Assembly: GCA_030606765.1 (NCBI GenBank)
Contig: JAUWFX010000047.1
Span: forward strand, 1 to 10,893
DNA: 10,893 nt
Source: Dehalococcoidia bacterium
GTDB taxonomy: Bacteria; Chloroflexota; Dehalococcoidia; GIF9; AB-539-J10
Direction: 5' to 3'
Below are positions 1,312 through 10,291 of this stretch, one piece after another; the stretch's first letter is position 1; each line of letters begins with the position of its first letter. The translations under genes were made by a program, and so were the position numbers. Below the pieces are notes generated by a model. It had not been told where the DNA came from, ran no database searches, and saw only the letters and a program-made list of their open reading frames with translations.

Positions 1312-1959
1312 TTAGGTAGAGGGAATACTTTTGACCAGCTTCCAAGCAATAGTTTCACAGAGCACAGTTATATCCTCGGTGGAGAGGTAATCAGAAATAT
1401 TAGCATCAAACAATATCCCTCCACTAGGAGAAAACTCCTCATCACCTCTCCACAAAGCAAAGGTTATAGGCACATGATGGAAGGCGTTGATGGTTACAGA
1501 TACCTCCCCCTGGTCCGCTTCACAGCCGCCAAAGTTTGCCGCGATGTCTATTAGCAGCTCAGGCTTTTGGCCAAAGTGCTTTACAAAAGGATTTATGGCT
1601 CTTTGGGAAAATGCCGGAAAATAGCTGACACCTCCCGGCAGCTGTTTATAGTTAATCAATATACCGGTAGATGGGGTGCCCTTTGCCAAAGTGAAATAAT
1701 GAAGTATCAGGATTTTGTCCTTCAGTGGAACTTCCATCTTGCTATCCCCTAACAAAATTTCGACATCGGGAAGGATAATATGGTATGGCTGATTCAGATA
1801 GTCAATGACTAGCTTATTAGGCTCTACGTACTGCGCAGCGCTTTTACGGCATTGCCCCTCTATATCACTGATTTTGGCCAACTGCTCACGAGCGAGCTTA
1901 TAAGGAAGCTCAAGACCCTGCTCCCGGGAACCGTGTGATGAATAATGTTGGTTTTTCAT
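1312..1959 (-). CDS. DUF3786 domain protein of unknown function
   Basis: A 215-residue soluble protein that looks like a DUF3786 member. The recognisable stretches are ILILHYFTLAKGTP (83-96), LPGGVSYFPAFSQRAINPFV (107-126), KHFGQKPELL (127-136), VPITFALWRGDEEFSPSGGI (163-182) and LFDANISDYLSTEDITVL (183-200). There is no signal peptide, membrane segment or clustered cysteine motif (C37, C146 and C201 are scattered), so it probably does not carry an Fe-S cluster by itself. The ATG shares one base with the metF stop (TAATG), which ties its translation to metF; no clear Shine-Dalgarno was found. The biochemical role is unknown. Coupling to metF suggests a task in the methyl branch or in corrinoid/CODH-ACS maturation, which is inference from context only. 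The family assignment is by memory of motifs. Confidence 0.82.
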   Translation of the reverse strand: MKNQHYSSHGSREQGLELPYKLAREQLAKISDIEGQCRKSAAQYVEPNKLVIDYLNQPYHIILPDVEILLGDSKMEVPLKDKILILHYFTLAKGTPSTGILINYKQLPGGVSYFPAFSQRAINPFVKHFGQKPELLIDIAANFGGCEADQGEVSVTINAFHHVPITFALWRGDEEFSPSGGILFDANISDYLSTEDITVLCETIAWKLVKSIPST

Positions 1960-2888
1960 TATGGGGTAAACTTAGGGCGGGGCAAAAGACCAGTTGCCTC
2001 TACTATCTCAGGCACTGCTTCCTCCCACTCGATAGCCATGAGGTGAATACCCGCCACACCCTCGATTTCACGCACCTGCTCAATAATGTCAACGCAAAGC
2101 TTGATACCTTCCTTAGACACCTCCTCCCTAGGTACTCCTTGAAGCCGGGCAACAATGCCGTCAGGCACATCCATTCCGGGAACTCTGGTCTTCATATATT
2201 TTGCGGCACCCACTGACTTTATGGGGGCAACACCGGCCAGTATCTTTACCCTCTCATGTAATCCTCTGTCCCGCACCATCTTCATCCATTCAGCGAACCT
2301 ATCTACATTGTAGATAATCTGAGTTTGGATGAAATCTGCCCCTGCTGACACTTTCTTGCTGAGACGCACCACCCTGAACTCGAAAGGGTCGGCAAAAGGA
2401 TTGGCAGCAGCTCCGACGAAAAGACGAGGCTCAACTGCCATCTCTTCCCCACACTGAAACTTTTTTTCGTCTCGCATATCCTTCACTATGTTAACCAGTT
2501 GAATAGAATCAACATCATAAACACCTCTGGCCATAGGATGGTTACCGAATTTCTGGTGGTCGCCGGTGAGACACAAGATGTTATTGATGCCCAGTGCTGC
2601 TATACCTAGCACATCCATCTGGAGAGCAATGCGATTTCGATCCCGACAGGTCATCTGGACAATATGATCTAACCCTTCCTCTTTACCTATAAGGCAAGCT
2701 GCCCAGGATGCCATGCGCACGACCGCAGTCTGACCATCGGTGACATTAACGGCATCTACATGCCCTTTCAGTATCTTGGCTTTTCTCTTAATTACCTCAG
2801 GGTCAGCGCTTTGCGGCGGGCCCAATTCGCCTGTGACAGCAAACTGTCCGGCCTCTAGTACCCGTTCCAAATTGCTTTTCGTCTTCAT
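1959..2888 (-). CDS. metF: 5,10-Methylenetetrahydrofolate reductase, MetF
   Basis: A TIM-barrel flavoprotein of 309 residues that reduces methylene-THF to methyl-THF, the methyl donor for AcsE/AcsC/AcsB. Seen motifs: FAVTGELGPPQ (16-26) with E21 at the place of the catalytic glutamate (Glu28 in E. coli MetF); VTDGQTAVVRM (49-59); QMTCRDRNRIALQ (78-90); ILCLTGDH (104-111), the flavin-binding strand; and ADFIQTQIIYNVDRF (184-198), with the substrate-side QTQ. The length is that of stand-alone bacterial MetF. It lacks the C-terminal regulatory domain of eukaryotic MTHFR and, like acetogen MetF, is expected to take electrons from a partner (MetV and the MetV-RnfC fusion) rather than from NADH directly. 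The ribosome binding site is GGAGG four bases before the ATG. The TAA shares one base with the next start (TAATG). Confidence 0.96.
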   Translation of the reverse strand: MKTKSNLERVLEAGQFAVTGELGPPQSADPEVIKRKAKILKGHVDAVNVTDGQTAVVRMASWAACLIGKEEGLDHIVQMTCRDRNRIALQMDVLGIAALGINNILCLTGDHQKFGNHPMARGVYDVDSIQLVNIVKDMRDEKKFQCGEEMAVEPRLFVGAAANPFADPFEFRVVRLSKKVSAGADFIQTQIIYNVDRFAEWMKMVRDRGLHERVKILAGVAPIKSVGAAKYMKTRVPGMDVPDGIVARLQGVPREEVSKEGIKLCVDIIEQVREIEGVAGIHLMAIEWEEAVPEIVEATGLLPRPKFTP

Positions 2889-2947
2889 TGCTCCTCCGGT
2901 TGTTTCGATAACAATAGCATCAGGAAAGCCTCTTTGGTGGCGGTCAT
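2885..2947 (-). CDS. Possible 20-codon coupling ORF between metV and metF
   Basis: The frame reads MTATKEAFLM then LLLSKQPEEQ and stops. Its ATG overlaps the metV stop in an ATGA, and its TGA overlaps the metF ATG in a second ATGA, so it fills the metV-metF gap exactly. It contains the GGAGGAG ribosome binding site of metF. No function is recognised. It could be a real micropeptide, a device to pass ribosomes from metV to metF, a remnant of a longer metV 3' end, or chance. Only the geometry supports it. Confidence 0.25.
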   Translation of the reverse strand: MTATKEAFLMLLLSKQPEEQ

Positions 2948-3555
2948 GAAACAGGGCTCACATTCCAATTCTTTGCTGGCGCAAGCCTTTCCAATGTATC
3001 AAGCTGTCCTAGCTTGGCAAGGCGATCGATAATCTGTTGCCACACGCAAGGCATATCCGGATCAACTTCACATTTGCCATCCTGTGAGCCGCCACAGGGA
3101 CCGTTAAGAAGGTTCTTGGAACATAGAGCAACGGGGCAAAGTCCTCCAGTATAGTTCAGATAGCATTCCCCGCATTGATCACAGTTGAATTCCTTGGCAG
3201 TAAGCCCCTGGAAACCATTCAGATAAAGAGTATCGCAACATGTATAGACTATTCTATCTTCCAGCAGCGAGGAAACAACCTGAGCTCCTACCCCGCAGGA
3301 GAAAACAAGGATTACCTGTGCCTTTTCTATTTCACTGGCATACGCCTTGATGTATTCGTGAACAAATTCCCTATGACAGAGATAGTCAAGAGATGCCTTG
3401 CCAACGACTTCTTCCTTCAAGCTGGCTATGAATTGTTCTGCCTCCTCCACTGGATAATGAACGTCCCGACAGCCTAGGCATTCAAAGATAAAGAGTTTCT
3501 TTGAGGAAATTAGCGGGACTATCTCTTCCTCAGCCTTTATTTGCACTGCGAGCAT
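2944..3555 (-). CDS. metV: Methylene-THF reductase iron-sulfur/zinc subunit MetV
   Basis: A 203-residue cysteine-rich protein of the MetV family, the usual length for a free-standing subunit. It passes electrons to MetF in the methyl branch of the Wood-Ljungdahl pathway. Cysteines C26, C29, C60, C87, C106, C107, C125, C128, C131, C140, C145, C154, C162 and C170 include the Fe-S and zinc ligands; LNYTGGLCP (133-141) and LLNGPCGG (149-156) are family signatures. Almost every cysteine has a counterpart in the MetV domain of the upstream fusion protein, so the two are paralogues that probably both bind metal. The ATG at 3555 has a good ribosome binding site (AGGAG at 3563-3567, seven bases away) inside the 3' end of the fusion gene, giving a 26-base overlap. 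metF follows after a 55-base gap that contains a coupled 20-codon frame. Confidence 0.94.
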   Translation of the reverse strand: MLAVQIKAEEEIVPLISSKKLFIFECLGCRDVHYPVEEAEQFIASLKEEVVGKASLDYLCHREFVHEYIKAYASEIEKAQVILVFSCGVGAQVVSSLLEDRIVYTCCDTLYLNGFQGLTAKEFNCDQCGECYLNYTGGLCPVALCSKNLLNGPCGGSQDGKCEVDPDMPCVWQQIIDRLAKLGQLDTLERLAPAKNWNVSPVS

Positions 3556-5557
3556 ACACCTTCTCCTGTCTTATAAAACTCAGAAGGGCAATCTTAGAAG
3601 CACATATGTATTCACAGCATCCACATTCCACACATTCCTCTACCTTGTATTCGATTGCTTTTCCCAGGTCGCCCTTCTTCCCATAGAAACCATAGAAAAG
3701 CGGATAGAGCTGCATGGGACAGACTTCCACACAACGACCACATTTTATGCAATCCCTTTCCTCAGAAGCCTTTACAGGATACTTCCTCAGAATAGTGAGC
3801 CCTGTAGTCCCTTTGATAACAGACGAATCCAGACTTGCTTGGGGAATTCCCATAACTAGACCGCCCATTTTCACGTCGTATTCCTCCAGAACCCTGTCCA
3901 CGTTCTTGTCAAAACAGTACTCCATGATATCCTTGAGCGGAGTTCCTATCTTGACCATGTAGTTTCCAAATCTGGTCAAGCCTTCTCCGGACACCGTCAT
4001 AACCCTTTGAAACAGGGGAACACCTTTTACCACTGCTTGATAAATGGCAAAAAGTGTACCGACATTTGAAACCATCACTCCCACATCGAAAGGAAGCCCC
4101 TTCGGAGGCGGAGGGACCTCTCTGTCCAGAATCCTCTTGATTAATGCTCTTTCCGCACCTTGAGGATATTTGGTTTTTAAACTAACCAGCTCGACTGATG
4201 GAGATTTATCTGAGAATCTGTTCAAAGCTGCCATGGCTTCAGGTTTATTGTCCTCGACTCCCACAAATACCCTTTCGACACCCAGGATGTTCTGGACTAT
4301 CCTTATCCCTGTAAAAATCTCTTCTGGATGCTCAATCATAATCCGGTTATCACCGTTTAAATAAGGCTCGCATTCACATCCATTTACAAGCAAAGTATCT
4401 ACTTCCTTAGGAGGAGAGAATTTTACGTGTGTTGGAAACATTGCTCCGCCAAGACCCACGATTCCACTTTCCTTTATTATTTCCAGCAAAGTCTCTTTCG
4501 GTAGTTCTTCAAAATCCTCACGAGGTTGAATCAGAGGATCAAGCTCGCTCTTTCCATCATTTTCTACTACTATAGCCAGCTCTTTCCTTGGCGCTGCGGG
4601 ATACGTTCGCTCCTCTATAGCTATAACCTTCCCACTGATGCTCGAGTGGATGGGAGAGGAAACAAAACCGTCAGCCTCTCCAATCTTCTGCCCGACCTTC
4701 ACTTCGTCACCCGACTGGACTATAGGATTGGCTCGTCTGCCCGCGTGTTGACTAAGGAATATGATCGCTATTTGAGGTTCCGGGAAATCCTCTATCTGTT
4801 TGTCCGCAGTTGCTTCCTTTTTCTCTAGAGGATGAAAGCCTCCGTAGAATCCCTCGCCTCTAAGCGTTTGATTCTGCAAGGATAGATCGCTTCTAAGCTT
4901 CCAGGATGGTTTCGAGTAGTCTCTTAGTTGAACATATTCTGAGGCGAACTGTTCCCCTCGTTTCTGAAGTCGCTCATGAATTCTTACCCAGGCGCAATCA
5001 ACACTTGAATTCACCTCACACTTTCCGTCCGTTGCTCCGCCACAAGGGCCATTCAACAGACCCTTGGCGCAATTCGTAATAGGGCAAATCCCTCCAGTTA
5101 AATTCAAATAACACTGCCCGCAAGCGGCACATTTCTCTTCTTCCAGAGAAATACCATGATAGCCGACCTCAGAGGGACAATTTACACTGTGCGGCACTGA
5201 ATCGGCTAAGGCGTAAACAGGCGTCTCCTCTAAAAGCTTAGCGACAAACTGAACTCCCAGACCACAAGAAACTACCCCTATGCTGTCGCAATGAGAAAGA
5301 TCTAAGTCTGAAATCCTCTTTTTAGACAAAAAATCATTACACAGAAAATCAATTCGTACGTGACCCAGGACTTTCTTGCTGTCCTCTCCTAGAATCTCCA
5401 GAAGCCGTGCATACAGTTCTTCGTTTTCCTCTTCAAATTTCTTGTAACATTTGCCACATGATAGGATGAATATCTGATTTACTCGTTCAAAGACTTCCCT
5501 GATTTCTTCGTCAGGTTTCAGTCTGAATTTAGTGTAGTCCATTAGTCGCATTTCCAT
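3530..5557 (-). CDS. Fusion protein: MetV-like Fe-S/zinc domain joined to RnfC2-like NADH module
   Basis: A 675-residue fusion. Residues 1 to about 210 are a MetV domain (methylene-THF reductase C-terminal-like), with C34, C37, C73, C98, C127, C143, C146, C149, C158, C163, C172, C180 and C188; LNLTGGICP and LLNGPCGG are typical. After a linker (about 212-235), residues 237-665 are RnfC-like: barrel-sandwich segment (NPIVQSGDEVKVGQKIGEA), flavin/NADH motif GLGGAMFPTHVK (368-379), NGCECEPYL (392-400), an SLBB segment, and two [4Fe-4S] motifs C603/C606/C609/C613 and C642/C645/C648/C652. In Acetobacterium woodii MetF, MetV and RnfC2 are separate subunits of an NADH-dependent methylene-THF reductase; here MetV and RnfC2 are one chain, and a second metV and metF follow. 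The likely role is NADH entry and electron transfer to MetF. It is soluble: no signal peptide or membrane segment, and no other Rnf genes nearby. Start: ATG at 5557 with GAGG ten bases upstream; M3 or M6 are possible. It overlaps metV by 26 bases. Confidence 0.92.
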   Translation of the reverse strand: MEMRLMDYTKFRLKPDEEIREVFERVNQIFILSCGKCYKKFEEENEELYARLLEILGEDSKKVLGHVRIDFLCNDFLSKKRISDLDLSHCDSIGVVSCGLGVQFVAKLLEETPVYALADSVPHSVNCPSEVGYHGISLEEEKCAACGQCYLNLTGGICPITNCAKGLLNGPCGGATDGKCEVNSSVDCAWVRIHERLQKRGEQFASEYVQLRDYSKPSWKLRSDLSLQNQTLRGEGFYGGFHPLEKKEATADKQIEDFPEPQIAIIFLSQHAGRRANPIVQSGDEVKVGQKIGEADGFVSSPIHSSISGKVIAIEERTYPAAPRKELAIVVENDGKSELDPLIQPREDFEELPKETLLEIIKESGIVGLGGAMFPTHVKFSPPKEVDTLLVNGCECEPYLNGDNRIMIEHPEEIFTGIRIVQNILGVERVFVGVEDNKPEAMAALNRFSDKSPSVELVSLKTKYPQGAERALIKRILDREVPPPPKGLPFDVGVMVSNVGTLFAIYQAVVKGVPLFQRVMTVSGEGLTRFGNYMVKIGTPLKDIMEYCFDKNVDRVLEEYDVKMGGLVMGIPQASLDSSVIKGTTGLTILRKYPVKASEERDCIKCGRCVEVCPMQLYPLFYGFYGKKGDLGKAIEYKVEECVECGCCEYICASKIALLSFIRQEKVYARSANKG

Positions 5558-5721: not shown

Positions 5722-6489
5722 TCATAGAAACAAGCTCTCGACTATCTCTTTCACCTCTAATTGAAGGGGAGATTCCTGGGGGAGTTCAGTTACGGGTCTT
5801 CCCTTCATTTCCAAACCCGCCATATCGGGGTCTTCTGGAATCATAGCAATGACTTGAAGACCAGATTCATCAATTACCTTTTTTATCTCTGGAGACAATT
5901 CACCTTTGACACGATTAATTACAAGCCCGACCTTATCCACGTTTGACCTCAATTCCCCAATGAGCTTCTTCATTCGAGCCGCCACAGTGAGACCTCTTAT
6001 TGTGGGGTCAGACATAATGAGCAAAACATCCACATCTCTGGTTGTTTGGCGACTAATGTGTTCCATACCTGCCTCACAGTCCATGACAATATAATTATAC
6101 TTATAATCTTTCACCAGCTTATCTAAGGAGGCACGCAGAAATTCATTAGGGGCACAATAGCACCCAGGCCCTTCCGGACGCCCCATGGCTAAAAGGTCAA
6201 AACCCTTGGACTCTACTAAGGATTCCATTATCTTGCTAAACAGATACTCCGGCTTGGTAATGGTTGGGCTAAAGCGACCCTTGGAGACATCCTCAGTTAT
6301 CTTTTCCCGTATTCCACCCACAGTCTTACTATCATCCAGAGGCAGACCCAGCGCCTGGCTAAGATTGGTGCTAGGGTCAGCATCTACAGCCAGGACCAAT
6401 CCCTTTTGCGAAAGGAGCTTGATGAGTAAGGCAGCAACAGTAGTCTTGCCTGTGCCTCCTTTTCCTGCGATAGCAATCGTCTTGGTCAT
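5722..6489 (-). CDS. cooC: CooC/AcsF-type nickel-insertion ATPase for CODH/ACS
   Basis: A 255-residue P-loop ATPase of the MinD/CooC family that inserts nickel into CO dehydrogenase or acetyl-CoA synthase. It has the deviant Walker A GKGGTGKTT (residues 9-17, signature lysine K10, catalytic K15), the switch I VDADPSTN (35-42) and the Walker B-like VMDCEAGMEH (135-144). C110 and C112 (PGCYCAPNEFLRA) form the CxC pair that binds nickel at the dimer interface of CooC proteins and separates it from MinD/ParA. The ATG overlaps the nuoF-like stop (ATGA), and AAGGAA precedes it. Its position downstream of acsB and acsC fits maturation of their complex. Sequence alone does not tell whether it serves the C-cluster (CooC proper) or the A-cluster (AcsF). 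The stop is followed by the 164-base gap before the metV-rnfC fusion. Confidence 0.94.
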   Translation of the reverse strand: MTKTIAIAGKGGTGKTTVAALLIKLLSQKGLVLAVDADPSTNLSQALGLPLDDSKTVGGIREKITEDVSKGRFSPTITKPEYLFSKIMESLVESKGFDLLAMGRPEGPGCYCAPNEFLRASLDKLVKDYKYNYIVMDCEAGMEHISRQTTRDVDVLLIMSDPTIRGLTVAARMKKLIGELRSNVDKVGLVINRVKGELSPEIKKVIDESGLQVIAMIPEDPDMAGLEMKGRPVTELPQESPLQLEVKEIVESLFL

Positions 6490-8399
6490 TTCCTTGCTCT
6501 CTTTTCAGACAAGTTCGGGGAAGGCAGCAAGCTAACAGGCGATAGCTTCACCACCGCATCATACTCGGGAGGACAGACATCCAGGCAAGTGCCGCAATTA
6601 ACGCATTTTTCTTGATCAATAAACTTTATCTCTCCCTTTTCGCCTTTAACGGCCTCGGTGGGGCAGGTAAGGACGCAATGCTCACAGCTTCTTTCGCACT
6701 TATCTGGCAAGATATAGTAAGCGGTGAGTTCGGGACATACTCTGGCGGGGCAGCGCTTTTCCAAGATGTGAGCTTCGTATTCATCCCGGAAATAGCGCAG
6801 GGTTGTGAGGACAGGGTTGGGGGCTGTTTTTCCTAAGCCACAAAGCGACCCTATCTTAACATCCTCAGCCAATGCGAGGAGAAGGTCAATATCCCCTATT
6901 GTGCCTCGACCAGCCGTGATGTCCTCCAAAATGTGTAGCATTTGCAAAGTCCCTAAGCGACACATAGTGCATTTCCCACAGGATTCCTTGGTAGAGAAAT
7001 CAAGAAAAAACCTCGCAGCATCGACCATGCAGTTATCCTCATCCATGACAATCATACCCCCTGAGCCCATCATTGAGCCAGCCTCTCGAAGGGAATCATA
7101 ATCGATAGGGATGTCAAGCAAAGTCTCGGGGAGACAACCCCCCGAGGGTCCTCCTATCTGTACTGCTTTAAACTGCTTATCTTTAGCAATTCCACCACCG
7201 ATGTCATAAGTAAGCTCGCGAAGTGTTGTTCCCATAGGCACTTCAGCCAATCCTGCGCTAGCCACTTTGCCTGCCAGGGTAAACACTGCTGTGCCCTTGC
7301 TTCCTTCAGTGCCGATGGAGGCAAACCAATCCGCCCCTCGTTTAACTATCAAAGGAACATAAGCAAAGGTCTTCACATTGTTTAACAGAGTAGGTTTATC
7401 CCATAATCCAAGCTCGGCAGGATAAGGTGGCCTGGGGCTAGGCGTGCTCATTTTCCCCTCAACAGCCGCTATAAGCGCTGTTTCTTCACCAGAGACGAAA
7501 GCACCAGCCCCTGCCGCTATCTCGATATGGAAACCAAAACCACTCCCTAAGATATTATCTCCCAGGAAACCTAGTTCCTCGGCTTGCTTTAAAGCAATCT
7601 GCACACGCTCAATAGCTAAAGGATATTCAGCACGGACATAGATATAGCCTTGCTCGGCACCTATAGTGTGACCGGCAATAATCATGCCCTCGATAACTTG
7701 ATGGGGGTCGCTTTCTAGAACCACCCGGTCCATAAAAGCGCCGGGGTCTCCTTCATCAGCATTGCATATGACATATTTTGGTGTGCTTCTAGCCTTACGG
7801 CATAGCTCCCACTTCCGATGGGTAGGAAATCCAGCCCCTCCCCTCCCTCGCAGCCCGGATTTCTTCAGCTCCCCAATTATCTTCGCAGGCGACATCTTTA
7901 ACGCCTTCTCCAGACCGCTGTAACCACCATTGGCAATATAGTGATTTATATTTTCAGGGTCGATATAGCCACAGCGGCGCAGTATGAGACGAAGCTCATG
8001 CTCAAACCTGGGAAGCTCGGGAATGTAGATTGCTTCCCCATCACCTCCTTCAAAGGTGCCTAAGGCAAGCTCAAGGCAAGGGTCATCGCCGGCAACATAA
8101 CCTTCCACAAGGCGAGGTACAATCTCCGGAGTCACATTGGCATACACGACACGAAGAGAGCCAGCCTTGGATATAACGACCAAGGGATCAGCATAGCATA
8201 AACCCGTGCAGCCAACCTGCATAATCGGAACTTCCAGCCCTTGCCTCGTTAGCTCCTTATTAAAGGCATCAACTACATCCAGGGCACCCGCTGCCCGACC
8301 ACAAGTAGCTGTGCCGATAAGGATATAGCTGCCATTCTGCAGAGCTTCCCATTCCGACTTTGCTTTATTATTAATTTCCTCGAAAGTCACGTTAAACAC
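6486..8399 (-). CDS. NuoF-like NADH/FMN iron-sulfur subunit with C-terminal 2[4Fe-4S] ferredoxin domain (HydB/BfuB type)
   Basis: A 637-residue flavoprotein that oxidises or reduces NAD(H) through FMN. Domains: thioredoxin-like [2Fe-2S] domain (about 20-105; C33, C64, C68); the Nqo1 core with NADH/FMN motifs GLRGRGGAGFPTHRKW (182-197) and CNADEGDPGAFMDR (212-225); the SLBB segment; the N3-type [4Fe-4S] cluster C474, C477, C480 and C520 (SCGKCTMC, SLCGLGK); then a ferredoxin domain with C568/C572/C575/C579 and C599/C602/C605/C609. H544, C550 and C555 (HILEKRCPARVC) resemble the extra metal site of HydB. Length and architecture match HydB of bifurcating hydrogenases rather than complex I NuoF, which lacks the N- and C-terminal additions. 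Oddities: I28 stands where a fourth [2Fe-2S] cysteine is expected, and the first ferredoxin motif has CxxxC instead of CxxC. The start is a GTG without a Shine-Dalgarno; an in-frame GTG at 8390 is an alternative. The stop overlaps cooC (ATGA). Confidence 0.93.
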   Translation of the reverse strand: MFNVTFEEINNKAKSEWEALQNGSYILIGTATCGRAAGALDVVDAFNKELTRQGLEVPIMQVGCTGLCYADPLVVISKAGSLRVVYANVTPEIVPRLVEGYVAGDDPCLELALGTFEGGDGEAIYIPELPRFEHELRLILRRCGYIDPENINHYIANGGYSGLEKALKMSPAKIIGELKKSGLRGRGGAGFPTHRKWELCRKARSTPKYVICNADEGDPGAFMDRVVLESDPHQVIEGMIIAGHTIGAEQGYIYVRAEYPLAIERVQIALKQAEELGFLGDNILGSGFGFHIEIAAGAGAFVSGEETALIAAVEGKMSTPSPRPPYPAELGLWDKPTLLNNVKTFAYVPLIVKRGADWFASIGTEGSKGTAVFTLAGKVASAGLAEVPMGTTLRELTYDIGGGIAKDKQFKAVQIGGPSGGCLPETLLDIPIDYDSLREAGSMMGSGGMIVMDEDNCMVDAARFFLDFSTKESCGKCTMCRLGTLQMLHILEDITAGRGTIGDIDLLLALAEDVKIGSLCGLGKTAPNPVLTTLRYFRDEYEAHILEKRCPARVCPELTAYYILPDKCERSCEHCVLTCPTEAVKGEKGEIKFIDQEKCVNCGTCLDVCPPEYDAVVKLSPVSLLPSPNLSEKRARK

Positions 8400-8405
8400 A
8401 AGATG

Positions 8406-8440
8406 GAGACAGAAAGAGGGTAGGGTAGGAGTTCTGTCTC
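8406..8440 (-). repeat. Inverted repeat spanning the nuoE stop and the nuoE-nuoF gap
   Basis: GAGACAGAA at 8406-8414 and its exact complement TTCTGTCTC at 8432-8440 form a perfect nine-pair stem with a 17-base loop that is pyrimidine-rich in the mRNA. Two bases of the nuoE-like stop codon lie in the stem. The 3' side of the stem ends six bases before the GTG start of the nuoF-like gene. No purine-rich ribosome binding site exists there, so the structure may influence re-initiation. There is no U-tract, so it is not a terminator. Confidence 0.55.
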
Positions 8441-8930
8441 AACTCTTCTCGCCCTGAGGTTCCTGCTTATACGGTATTAAAGCCTCCTCCACCTTAAAGG
8501 GTGTCATCTTAGGATAGATTTTATCCCTTATTACTATGACGGGAGCCAGCATGCAGCACCCAATACAAGCGACCCTTTCCAAGCTGAAGTTACCATCCTT
8601 GGCAGTCTCTCCTACTTTGATATCTAACTCACGCTCCAGGGCTTCTAAAATAAGTTTACCCCCCGCTAAGTGACAGGCAGTCCCCATGCAAACCCTGGTG
8701 TGGTATTTCCCTAACGGAACAAAGCGAAACTGATTATAGAAAGTAGCAACCCCCCAAATCTCAACCTCTGGTACCTCCAGGAAGCCGGCAATTTTTTGCA
8801 GCGCTTCCTTGGGGAGATACCCCAGGCTTGTCTGGACTTCTTGCAATAGGGGGATTAAATTTTTCTTTTCTTTTTTATGCGAGCTTAAAATCTCAGCTAC
8901 TGCTTGGCTAGCTTGCTCCTCTGTAATCAT
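8439..8930 (-). CDS. NuoE-like 24 kDa [2Fe-2S] subunit (HydC/BfuC type)
   Basis: A 163-residue thioredoxin-fold ferredoxin of the complex I 24 kDa (NuoE/HydC) family. The N-terminal helical part contains LIPLLQEVQTSLGYLP and the family motif EIWGVATFYNQF. The [2Fe-2S] ligands are C81 and C86 (CMGTAC) and C122 and C126 (CIGCC), with the normal spacing. Length and motifs are complete. In NADH dehydrogenases and electron-bifurcating hydrogenases this subunit docks on the NuoF/HydB subunit and shuttles electrons from its FMN; the nuoF-like gene follows after 38 bases in the same frame. The ATG overlaps the acsC stop (ATGA), which implies translational coupling, and AAAGG lies directly before it. 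A place between acsC and cooC suggests that the electron carrier serves the acetyl-CoA pathway. The name nuoE is used only for the family; no quinone-reducing complex I genes are visible. Confidence 0.93.
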   Translation of the reverse strand: MITEEQASQAVAEILSSHKKEKKNLIPLLQEVQTSLGYLPKEALQKIAGFLEVPEVEIWGVATFYNQFRFVPLGKYHTRVCMGTACHLAGGKLILEALERELDIKVGETAKDGNFSLERVACIGCCMLAPVIVIRDKIYPKMTPFKVEEALIPYKQEPQGEKS

Positions 8931-10291
8931 CCTTTAAGTTGCTTAGCAAATCCAGGCAGGAAAGCTCCTATTCCAGTCGTTTCCCGGGGACCGATTATTA
9001 TCTCCCACTCGAGGTTCAAAGCATCTTCAAGCTCACCTTTGATTCTGGCCACTTTCCCCGGGATAACTAGCTTTCTATGTTTCACCTTATCCTCGATGCC
9101 ACATTTCTTGATAAATGTTCCTACGGAATCGCCGCTAAACTTACCTGCTGCCCAGGCAGTGAGGACACCGAGTCCCTCTGCGTCTTTAACACAAATGTAA
9201 GCGGAAACCTTGGCAGCCTCAACAGCCGATGAGACAAGGAAGTAGGTCAAAGCCCAGTTTGAAGTAACCAGAACCGGGGAGGATTCATCAGGCTCTCCCA
9301 CTTCATAATACTTCTCCTCTACCGCCATGGGAAAACGAGGATCGGTGTAGATGTTAAGCCGTTGAACCAGGAGAGGAAGCAGGGAATACTGGTCGAAATC
9401 AGAAAATACAATAATGCTGGCCCATTTATTTATGAACGTCGAGCCTATTAGCATTTCCTTCAGTCCGTCTTTGGCCATGAAGCAAGGAAAGCCAATAGTG
9501 GGATAGCCAAGAGGCTTGAAACCCTTCTTTAGCGCTGCCTTCCTGATAAAAGTCTGGTCTCTTATTGCCTCCAGCAAATTTTTAGAACCCGGGTCTAAAA
9601 CCAGTTCCTCAATCCCGGCATCTTTTAACTTGGTGGTTAGAGTAACGAGTTCTTCAATACTTTGCCCACGAAGGCCAACAGGAGTAACATTCGCTTCAAT
9701 CTTTGGAATGGCCTCATCAATGTTTTCTTTCGTTATGGGGTAAAGAAGTGGATGCCTATCCGCACATATATCCCGTGCCGCAAATAAGGCATCCATATCT
9801 TCTGAGATTAAGATCATACCCAGGTCTGTTGAATCATAAACTTTTTTCACCAAAGCCAAAAACTTATCCCTGTCCCCCGATTCAAAATGAAGTGCCAAGA
9901 GGTCTGCCTCTAGATTTACGCCAACCCAGGGGAACTGCAATGCCTTTATCTTCTTTATTTTCTCTTCGATTTTGGCTTTGTCTTCCTTGTCTGAGATAAG
10001 GAGAGTAATGCCCGGTGAATGGACAAAAGTTTTCTCATGCCGGTATATCACTTCTTCGTTCCCGATTTTGACGGCGTTTTCCCCAGAGCCTATAGTAACA
10101 AGCTTTATCGGCGGTGCCAGAAGATCCAGCAGCTTGGCTTTCGTTTCCTCGGAGAGGTAAGGGCATTTGTCCACAGTAGTTCCACCTGATGCTAGCTTCA
10201 TGGCAAAGGCAAAACAAGTAGGGAAGCCACAGTCCTTACACGGTCTCTTTCCGGGAAGCATCTTTACAATCTCAGAACCTGCAATTGGCAT
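8927..10291 (-). CDS. acsC: Corrinoid iron-sulfur protein large (gamma) subunit
   Basis: This protein carries the methyl group on its cobalamin from methyl-THF (via the AcsE methyltransferase) to the A-cluster of AcsB. It has 454 residues from the ATG at 10291, close to the roughly 446 of Moorella AcsC. The N-terminal domain holds the single [4Fe-4S] cluster with C18, C21, C26 and C43 in CKDCGFPTC plus DKCPYL; this cluster reactivates the corrinoid reductively. A TIM-barrel region (roughly residues 60-310) and a C-terminal corrinoid-binding domain follow, ending in the typical WEIIIGPRETTGIGAFLPGF. The start is set by the AGGAGG at 10298-10303, just downstream of the hairpin after acsB. The stop overlaps the nuoE-like start in an ATGA. 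Its usual partner AcsD (small subunit) is not in the window and must be encoded elsewhere, perhaps upstream of acsB. Confidence 0.96.
   Translation of the reverse strand: MPIAGSEIVKMLPGKRPCKDCGFPTCFAFAMKLASGGTTVDKCPYLSEETKAKLLDLLAPPIKLVTIGSGENAVKIGNEEVIYRHEKTFVHSPGITLLISDKEDKAKIEEKIKKIKALQFPWVGVNLEADLLALHFESGDRDKFLALVKKVYDSTDLGMILISEDMDALFAARDICADRHPLLYPITKENIDEAIPKIEANVTPVGLRGQSIEELVTLTTKLKDAGIEELVLDPGSKNLLEAIRDQTFIRKAALKKGFKPLGYPTIGFPCFMAKDGLKEMLIGSTFINKWASIIVFSDFDQYSLLPLLVQRLNIYTDPRFPMAVEEKYYEVGEPDESSPVLVTSNWALTYFLVSSAVEAAKVSAYICVKDAEGLGVLTAWAAGKFSGDSVGTFIKKCGIEDKVKHRKLVIPGKVARIKGELEDALNLEWEIIIGPRETTGIGAFLPGFAKQLKG

Follow-up and report, generated by a model that had tools for sequence, protein, structure and literature searches.

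A mosaic metV in a type III methylene-THF reductase operon of Dehalococcoidia suggests acquisition of the RnfC2 module by recombination

Gene content of the locus

The window, the whole stretch of 10,893 nucleotides analysed here, belongs to a contig of a Dehalococcoidia bacterium. Every gene that could be assigned is on the minus strand. In order, these are acsB (3' part), acsC, a NuoE-like gene, a NuoF-like gene, a cooC-like ATPase gene, rnfC2, metV, metF, a DUF3786 gene and, truncated at the edge, the beginning of a further gene. The features surrounding rnfC2 are the following.

5722..6489, minus strand: cooC/acsF-like ATPase gene upstream of rnfC2 (Pfam CbiA)
3530..5557, minus strand: rnfC2, MetV-RnfC fusion of 675 aa (frame, Pfam/NCBIfam, identity to A. 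woodii-like RnfC2)
4922..5557, minus strand: MetV-like domain of RnfC2, residues 1-212, with 12 invariant Cys (PF12225)
4850..4921, minus strand: inter-domain linker of RnfC2, residues 213-236 (low pLDDT)
3551..4849, minus strand: RnfC domain, residues 237-669, the NADH/FMN module (TIGR01945; fold match 9eri_C)
3602..3751, minus strand: two [4Fe-4S] motifs, Cys 603-652 of RnfC2
3530..3555, minus strand: overlap of rnfC2 and metV, 26 nt
2944..3555, minus strand: separate metV, 203 residues, adjoining the 3' end of rnfC2
1959..2888, minus strand: metF, 309 aa, of a lineage occurring next to MvhD/HdrA or hydrogenase genes
1312..1959, minus strand: DUF3786 gene downstream of metF (Pfam)

A separate metV is encoded beside rnfC2, and the fusion therefore does not replace MetV.

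The NuoE-like and NuoF-like genes occupy positions 6486-8930 between acsC and cooC, and the NuoF-like protein has C-terminal [4Fe-4S] motifs. The edge-cut gene (3-1082) shares about 91% identity with the first part of a 1365-aa protein from locus L103 (187-4284), which consists of a NuoG-like start, a GltD-like domain and a formate dehydrogenase alpha subunit scoring above the NCBIfam cut-off. The protein resembles StnC as presented in the available part of PMC7483475, but with a full formate dehydrogenase part. The NuoE/NuoF-like genes and the StnC-like gene could encode a bifurcating formate dehydrogenase or a transhydrogenase.

The fused protein

The original prediction of an uninterrupted 675-residue frame holding MetV, RnfC and both [4Fe-4S] motifs is confirmed by the frame, the domain matches and the cysteine alignment. 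The rnfC2 gene is a single ATG-started frame without internal stop, read on the minus strand from 5557 to 3530, and PF12225, RnfC_N, Complex1_51K and TIGR01945 were all matched in one chain. Pfam assigns the MetV-type Cys-rich domain PF12225 to residues 136-208, RnfC_N to residues 237-336 and Complex1_51K to residues 361-507, and the NCBIfam model TIGR01945 (rnfC) spans residues 237-669 with 486 bits (cut-off 246). All 25 aligned fused proteins keep the two four-cysteine [4Fe-4S] motifs (603/606/609/613 and 642/645/648/652); this set has one row per place and combines 16 fused loci with nine of the 120 listed homologs. The 12 cysteines of the MetV part are kept in all 25 as well, and likewise in 16 of 16 adjacent MetV and 10 of 10 other MetV. 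The linker, which opens with the motif R-[DN]-[YHF], can be aligned across all 25 rows. We considered the fused MetV domain as a dead copy and ruled this out, all 12 cysteines being kept.

The fold model of RnfC2 (mean pLDDT 76, pTM 0.68) is unreliable on the packing of the MetV domain against the RnfC domain, and pLDDT falls below 50 at residues 1-6, 122-147, 167-171 and 210-245. The best fold match of the RnfC part is 9eri_C, the NADH-bound RnfC of the A. woodii Rnf complex (TM 0.87 by target). A single-sequence search retrieved no solved structure of MetV, and a profile search gave seven weak matches, none of them MetV, the best being a designed repeat protein (E 0.0002).

The homolog search scored 7828 candidates, and all 120 matches listed carry PF12225 and RnfC domains (table read by eye), 119 being near full length and one (P0097) a 507-residue piece. 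Whole-genome searches (E 1e-60 for the groups of G002, G005 and G006, 1e-125 for the class of G319) located the fusion in at least 4 of 294 genomes in the class of G002, a Dehalococcoidia record, and at least 6 of 391 in the class of G319, an Oscillospiraceae record, both counts being lower bounds since three or four candidates were scored per genome. The fusion is also present in 3 of 17 genomes in the phylum of G005, an Aerophobetes record, and in 1 of 6 in the class of G006; G007, of the same phylum as G005, has a 124-residue piece of the fusion at a contig edge (L017). In each of the 16 distinct fused loci, the next genes are a separate metV and metF, the latter continuing past the contig end in L004, L005 and L006. 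A 26-nt overlap links rnfC2 to metV in the window, L001-L006 and L098-L100, and L092-L097, the six loci of the Clostridia class, have 1 nt between the two genes instead.

The MetV domains of the fused proteins group in a single clade (bootstrap/SH-aLRT 100/99), as do fused RnfC domains when placed against 41 of the 58 RnfC matches (SH-aLRT 99, quick method). The two clades point to a likely single old fusion, under midpoint roots and with long-branch warnings, which the tree tool issued for the MetV, RnfC, MetF and split-MetV trees.

Relation to the A. woodii reductase

The original prediction took MetV and RnfC2 to be merely separate subunits in A. woodii and was aware of no described enzyme with this chain. 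The available parts of three published accounts (PMC3315566, PMC8760232, PMC8515935) describe A. woodii RnfC2 itself as a MetV-RnfC fusion, with a 220-residue N-terminal extension similar to MetV (PMC3315566) and with MetV and RnfC domains 41% identical to the single subunits (PMC8515935). The A. woodii enzyme, as quoted in PMC8760232, is a 1:1:1 complex containing 2 FMN and some 24 Fe that catalyses NADH-dependent reduction, and MetVF without RnfC2 does not use NADH; six [4Fe-4S] clusters are given for the enzyme in the same source. Since A. woodii RnfC2 is a fusion, the published enzyme comprises MetV-RnfC, MetV and MetF, which is the gene set of the window.

An A. woodii-like genome (G410) has three genes followed by rnfC2, a metV of 205 residues and metF. 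By size, the three genes are presumably fhs, fchA and folD, and from the published gene order we infer that G410 is A. woodii. Window RnfC2 is 43% identical (63% positives) to the 654-residue G410 protein over residues 7-670, linker included.

The novelty of the fusion is thus refuted by the A. woodii literature and this identity: the architecture is common, with at least 120 homologs listed, and is already characterised. The suggestion that it fixes the stoichiometry fares no better, as MetV is also encoded separately and the fusion alone sets no simple ratio. What stands of the earlier interpretation are the domains and a likely NADH-linked enzyme of MetF, MetV and RnfC; the premise of unfused A. 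woodii subunits does not.

Judged from its genes, the window system is a predicted type III (RnfC2-MetV-MetF) methylene-THF reductase within a Wood-Ljungdahl cluster. It has an RnfC-like subunit with an N-terminal MetV domain, a separate metV (2944-3555) and metF (1959-2888) adjacent to rnfC2, and, by Cys positions, the ligands of the six-[4Fe-4S] enzyme, 12 + 12 in the two MetV and 8 in RnfC. Its MetF is not of the A. woodii lineage, a property that is not a published type III criterion.

The separate MetV is a mosaic

In six Dehalococcoidia fused loci (window, L001-L004 and L098) the separate MetV is a mosaic of two parts. Residues 1-120 of window MetV are 74% identical to MetV of L099, a fused locus of the Aerophobetes-record phylum, and 29% to that of L134, a hydrogenase-type Dehalococcoidia locus; for residues 156-203 the values are 35% and 79%. 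By the maximum chi-squared method, all 12 runs (six loci, two parent pairs) break at residue 138-145, and in each run 0 of 5000 permutations were as extreme. Seven of eight control triplets reached 108 to 1557 of 2000 permutations, the one at 108 being borderline, and the eighth gave a weak signal at 8 of 2000 with a chi-squared of 15, against 44-89 in the six mosaic loci. The two parts correspond to the following positions.

3142..3555, minus strand: metV residues 1-138, of probable type III (RnfC2-linked) ancestry (max-chi2, split trees, codon positions)
2944..3141, minus strand: metV residues 139-203 and stop, of probable Dehalococcoidia (hydrogenase-operon) ancestry (max-chi2, split trees, codon positions)

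Separate trees of the two parts disagree on the position of the six loci. The N-terminal part places them with other RnfC2-linked MetV (100/99.9), in one group with L099, L005 and L100 of the Aerophobetes-record phylum and with L006, and a grouping with hydrogenase-linked MetV is rejected (AU p 0.001). The C-terminal part places them among Dehalococcoidia MetV, with the hydrogenase-linked proteins (100/98); grouping this part, 73 columns long, with other type III MetV is nearly rejected (AU p 0.055). When MetV is analysed at whole length, the 16 adjacent proteins all fall into a single clade (96/90), which would follow from dominance of the longer N-terminal part. The position of the N-terminal part with loci of the Aerophobetes-record phylum and of the C-terminal part among Dehalococcoidia makes it the simplest direction that RnfC2 and the N-terminal part came in, while MetF and the C-terminal part were resident.

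The mosaic might instead have arisen by convergent selection, the C-terminus of MetV adapting to a new MetF after an exchange of MetF alone, with no recombination in metV. The shortness of the C-terminal part and the AU value of its alternative grouping leave some room for this, but we consider it unlikely, as the agreement extends to the DNA. The C-terminal parts of the window and L098 share 81-83% of their nucleotides and 62-67% of their third codon positions with L134, against 52-56% and 43-48% with L099, and the C-terminal tail is shared with hydrogenase-type MetV almost residue by residue. Agreement at third positions is clearest in these two loci: in L098, the N-terminal part agrees with L099 at 72% and with L134 at 36%, and the C-terminal part with L134 at 67% versus 48% with L099. 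The signal is weaker in L004, whose C-terminal part has 73% DNA identity to L134 and third-position agreement of 49% (L134) and 32% (L099).

The six loci do not form one clade in the N-part tree, and RnfC2 of L098 is closer to that of L099 (81%) than to other Dehalococcoidia copies (69-77%). More than one transfer is therefore possible.

MetF of another lineage

Window MetF shares 35% identity with A. woodii-like MetF and 56-61% with the proteins of L020-L022, in two of which (L021, L022) MvhD directly precedes metV. The fused loci L099, L100 and L006 carry A. woodii-like MetF (51-55%). A single clade of all type III MetF is rejected (AU p 9e-6, for a group picked after the identities were known), in a tree from which L005 was omitted for its shortened metF. 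The two partners of L098 differ in their affinities: against L099, RnfC2 is 81% and MetF 41% identical, and against the window, RnfC2 is 77% and MetF 92% identical.

Deep-sea Chloroflexi have been reported to possess an Hdr-MvhD-MetVF cluster and two metVF sets, with one MetF nearer to Moorella and one nearer to A. woodii (PMC5736913, available part); RnfC2 is not mentioned in that part of the account.

Electron-input genes in related operons

Close MetF matches occur in 55 of the 294 genomes of the G002 class, and we inspected the surroundings of 20 without a full-length fusion. [NiFe] hydrogenase genes precede metV-metF in four of them (L134, L135, L139 and L116). The first three encode a small subunit, a large subunit and a maturation protease (by Pfam in L134 and L139, by similarity in L135), and L116 has part of the large subunit at a contig edge.

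L134:9636-12603: [NiFe] hydrogenase genes directly before metV-metF
L135:10554-13470: [NiFe] hydrogenase genes directly before metV-metF
L139:3189-6172: [NiFe] hydrogenase genes directly before metV-metF

The flanks of L134 are those of the window: acsC, NuoE, NuoF, cooC, the hydrogenase genes, metV, metF and DUF3786. Three of the 20 surroundings have MvhD (L137) or both HdrA and MvhD (L149, L150), and L148 has a single metV before metF within a short contig. In the other 12, several of which are short contigs, metV was not found directly before metF in the available stretch. HdrA genes are nearby in L141 and L142, in the opposite direction.

A DUF3786 gene follows metF in Dehalococcoidia operons of both the RnfC2 type (L001-L003, L098) and the hydrogenase type (L134, L135). 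By eye, the start of the hydrogenase small subunit has no apparent export signal. MetV beside the hydrogenase has Asp at the position of window Cys 87 in L134 (8960-9610) and L135 (9910-10560), and L139 keeps Cys. L135 has a further metV-like gene (9191-9829), located between its metV and metF, that seems broken, as MetV similarity continues beyond the end of the open frame.

We regard the hydrogenase-metV-metF operons as candidates for an H2-driven methylene-THF reductase, a suggestion from gene content that could be assayed. Among the available open-licence literature, we found no report of RnfC2 in Dehalococcoidia, of the MetF swap or of a hydrogenase-metVF operon.

Proposed origin and mechanism

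RnfC2 of the window would be the NADH-input subunit of a type III reductase. Along with the first ~138 residues of MetV, it would have been acquired horizontally from an Aerophobetes-like type III operon, Aerophobetes-group copies being those it resembles among the loci compared. Recombination inside metV would then have joined the incoming module to the resident MetV C-terminus and MetF, the RnfC2 module taking the position occupied by a [NiFe] hydrogenase in close relatives. We put the probability of this origin, together with the mechanism set out next, at about 80%.

In the assembled enzyme, NADH would reduce FMN in the RnfC domain, and electrons would pass through the two RnfC [4Fe-4S] clusters to the clusters of the fused MetV, on to the separate MetV and to the flavin of MetF, which would reduce methylene-THF to methyl-THF. 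This route from NADH over RnfC2 and MetV to MetF is proposed by analogy with A. woodii biochemistry and from the conserved ligands. The N-terminal part of MetV may dock the electron-input module, and the C-terminal part may dock MetF.

A different role for RnfC2 was hypothesised for A. woodii by Poehlein et al. 2012 (PMC3315566, available part): RnfC2 would replace RnfC on the membrane Rnf complex and feed Rnf electrons to the reductase via its MetV domain, and would not be a soluble NADH module. Of 15 carrier genomes, 12 have RnfD and 11 have RnfA/E. We nevertheless judge such docking unlikely. A separate RnfC lies beside rnfD in four of four carriers inspected (G002, G004, G005, G006), and the A. 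woodii enzyme was purified as an NADH-active three-subunit complex (as quoted in PMC8760232). G001, G003 and G151 gave no RnfD or RnfA/E match, which is weak evidence, genome completeness not being stated. Docking to Rnf is not needed to explain the system. That metV and rnfC were brought together by a chimeric contig or a frame error, including an assembly join at residues 210-235, is very unlikely, since full-length fused homologs have the same junction in separate assemblies, and the same fusion, linker and gene order recur across many of these and on an A. woodii-like chromosome.

With RnfC2 as a horizontally acquired NADH module, a broader scheme can be put forward tentatively, at odds somewhat below even. 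MetF of one Dehalococcoidia lineage may have an exchangeable electron socket, driven by NADH (RnfC2), H2 ([NiFe] hydrogenase) or Hdr/MvhD, with the donor changed by recombination inside metV. If true, the N-terminal part of MetV is the input side and the C-terminal part the MetF side, and the swap breakpoint gives a map of both docking sides that can be tested. The electron donor of methylene-THF reduction sets the energy saved by an acetogen.

Comparison with known systems

The RnfC part shares the fold and motifs of RnfC of the Rnf complex (9eri_C, 7zc6_C), with 40-42% identity in structure alignment. RnfC of the Rnf complex, however, lacks a MetV domain, and the fused RnfC domains form a clade of their own; no domains of the rnfABDEG membrane subunits were detected among the ten window proteins scanned. 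The MetF lineage links the window to the type IV system (HdrABC-MvhD-MetVF, Moorella thermoacetica), as it occurs beside MvhD/HdrA in L022, L149 and L150, whereas HdrA, HdrB, HdrC and MvhD are absent among the same ten proteins.

The closest likeness is to A. woodii RnfC2 (Awo_c09290), which has the same N-terminal MetV and C-terminal RnfC, the neighbouring separate metV and metF, and the conserved cluster ligands. The window differs from it in sequence (43% identity), in a metF partner of another lineage (35%) and in its mosaic metV. Its rnfC2 is part of an acs cluster (acsB-acsC-nuoE-nuoF-cooC) and overlaps metV by 26 nt, whereas A. woodii rnfC2 is located beside fhs-fchA-folD, with a 1-nt gap before metV in the A. 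woodii-like locus. The fusion itself is nothing new; what is new is the hybrid operon that surrounds it.
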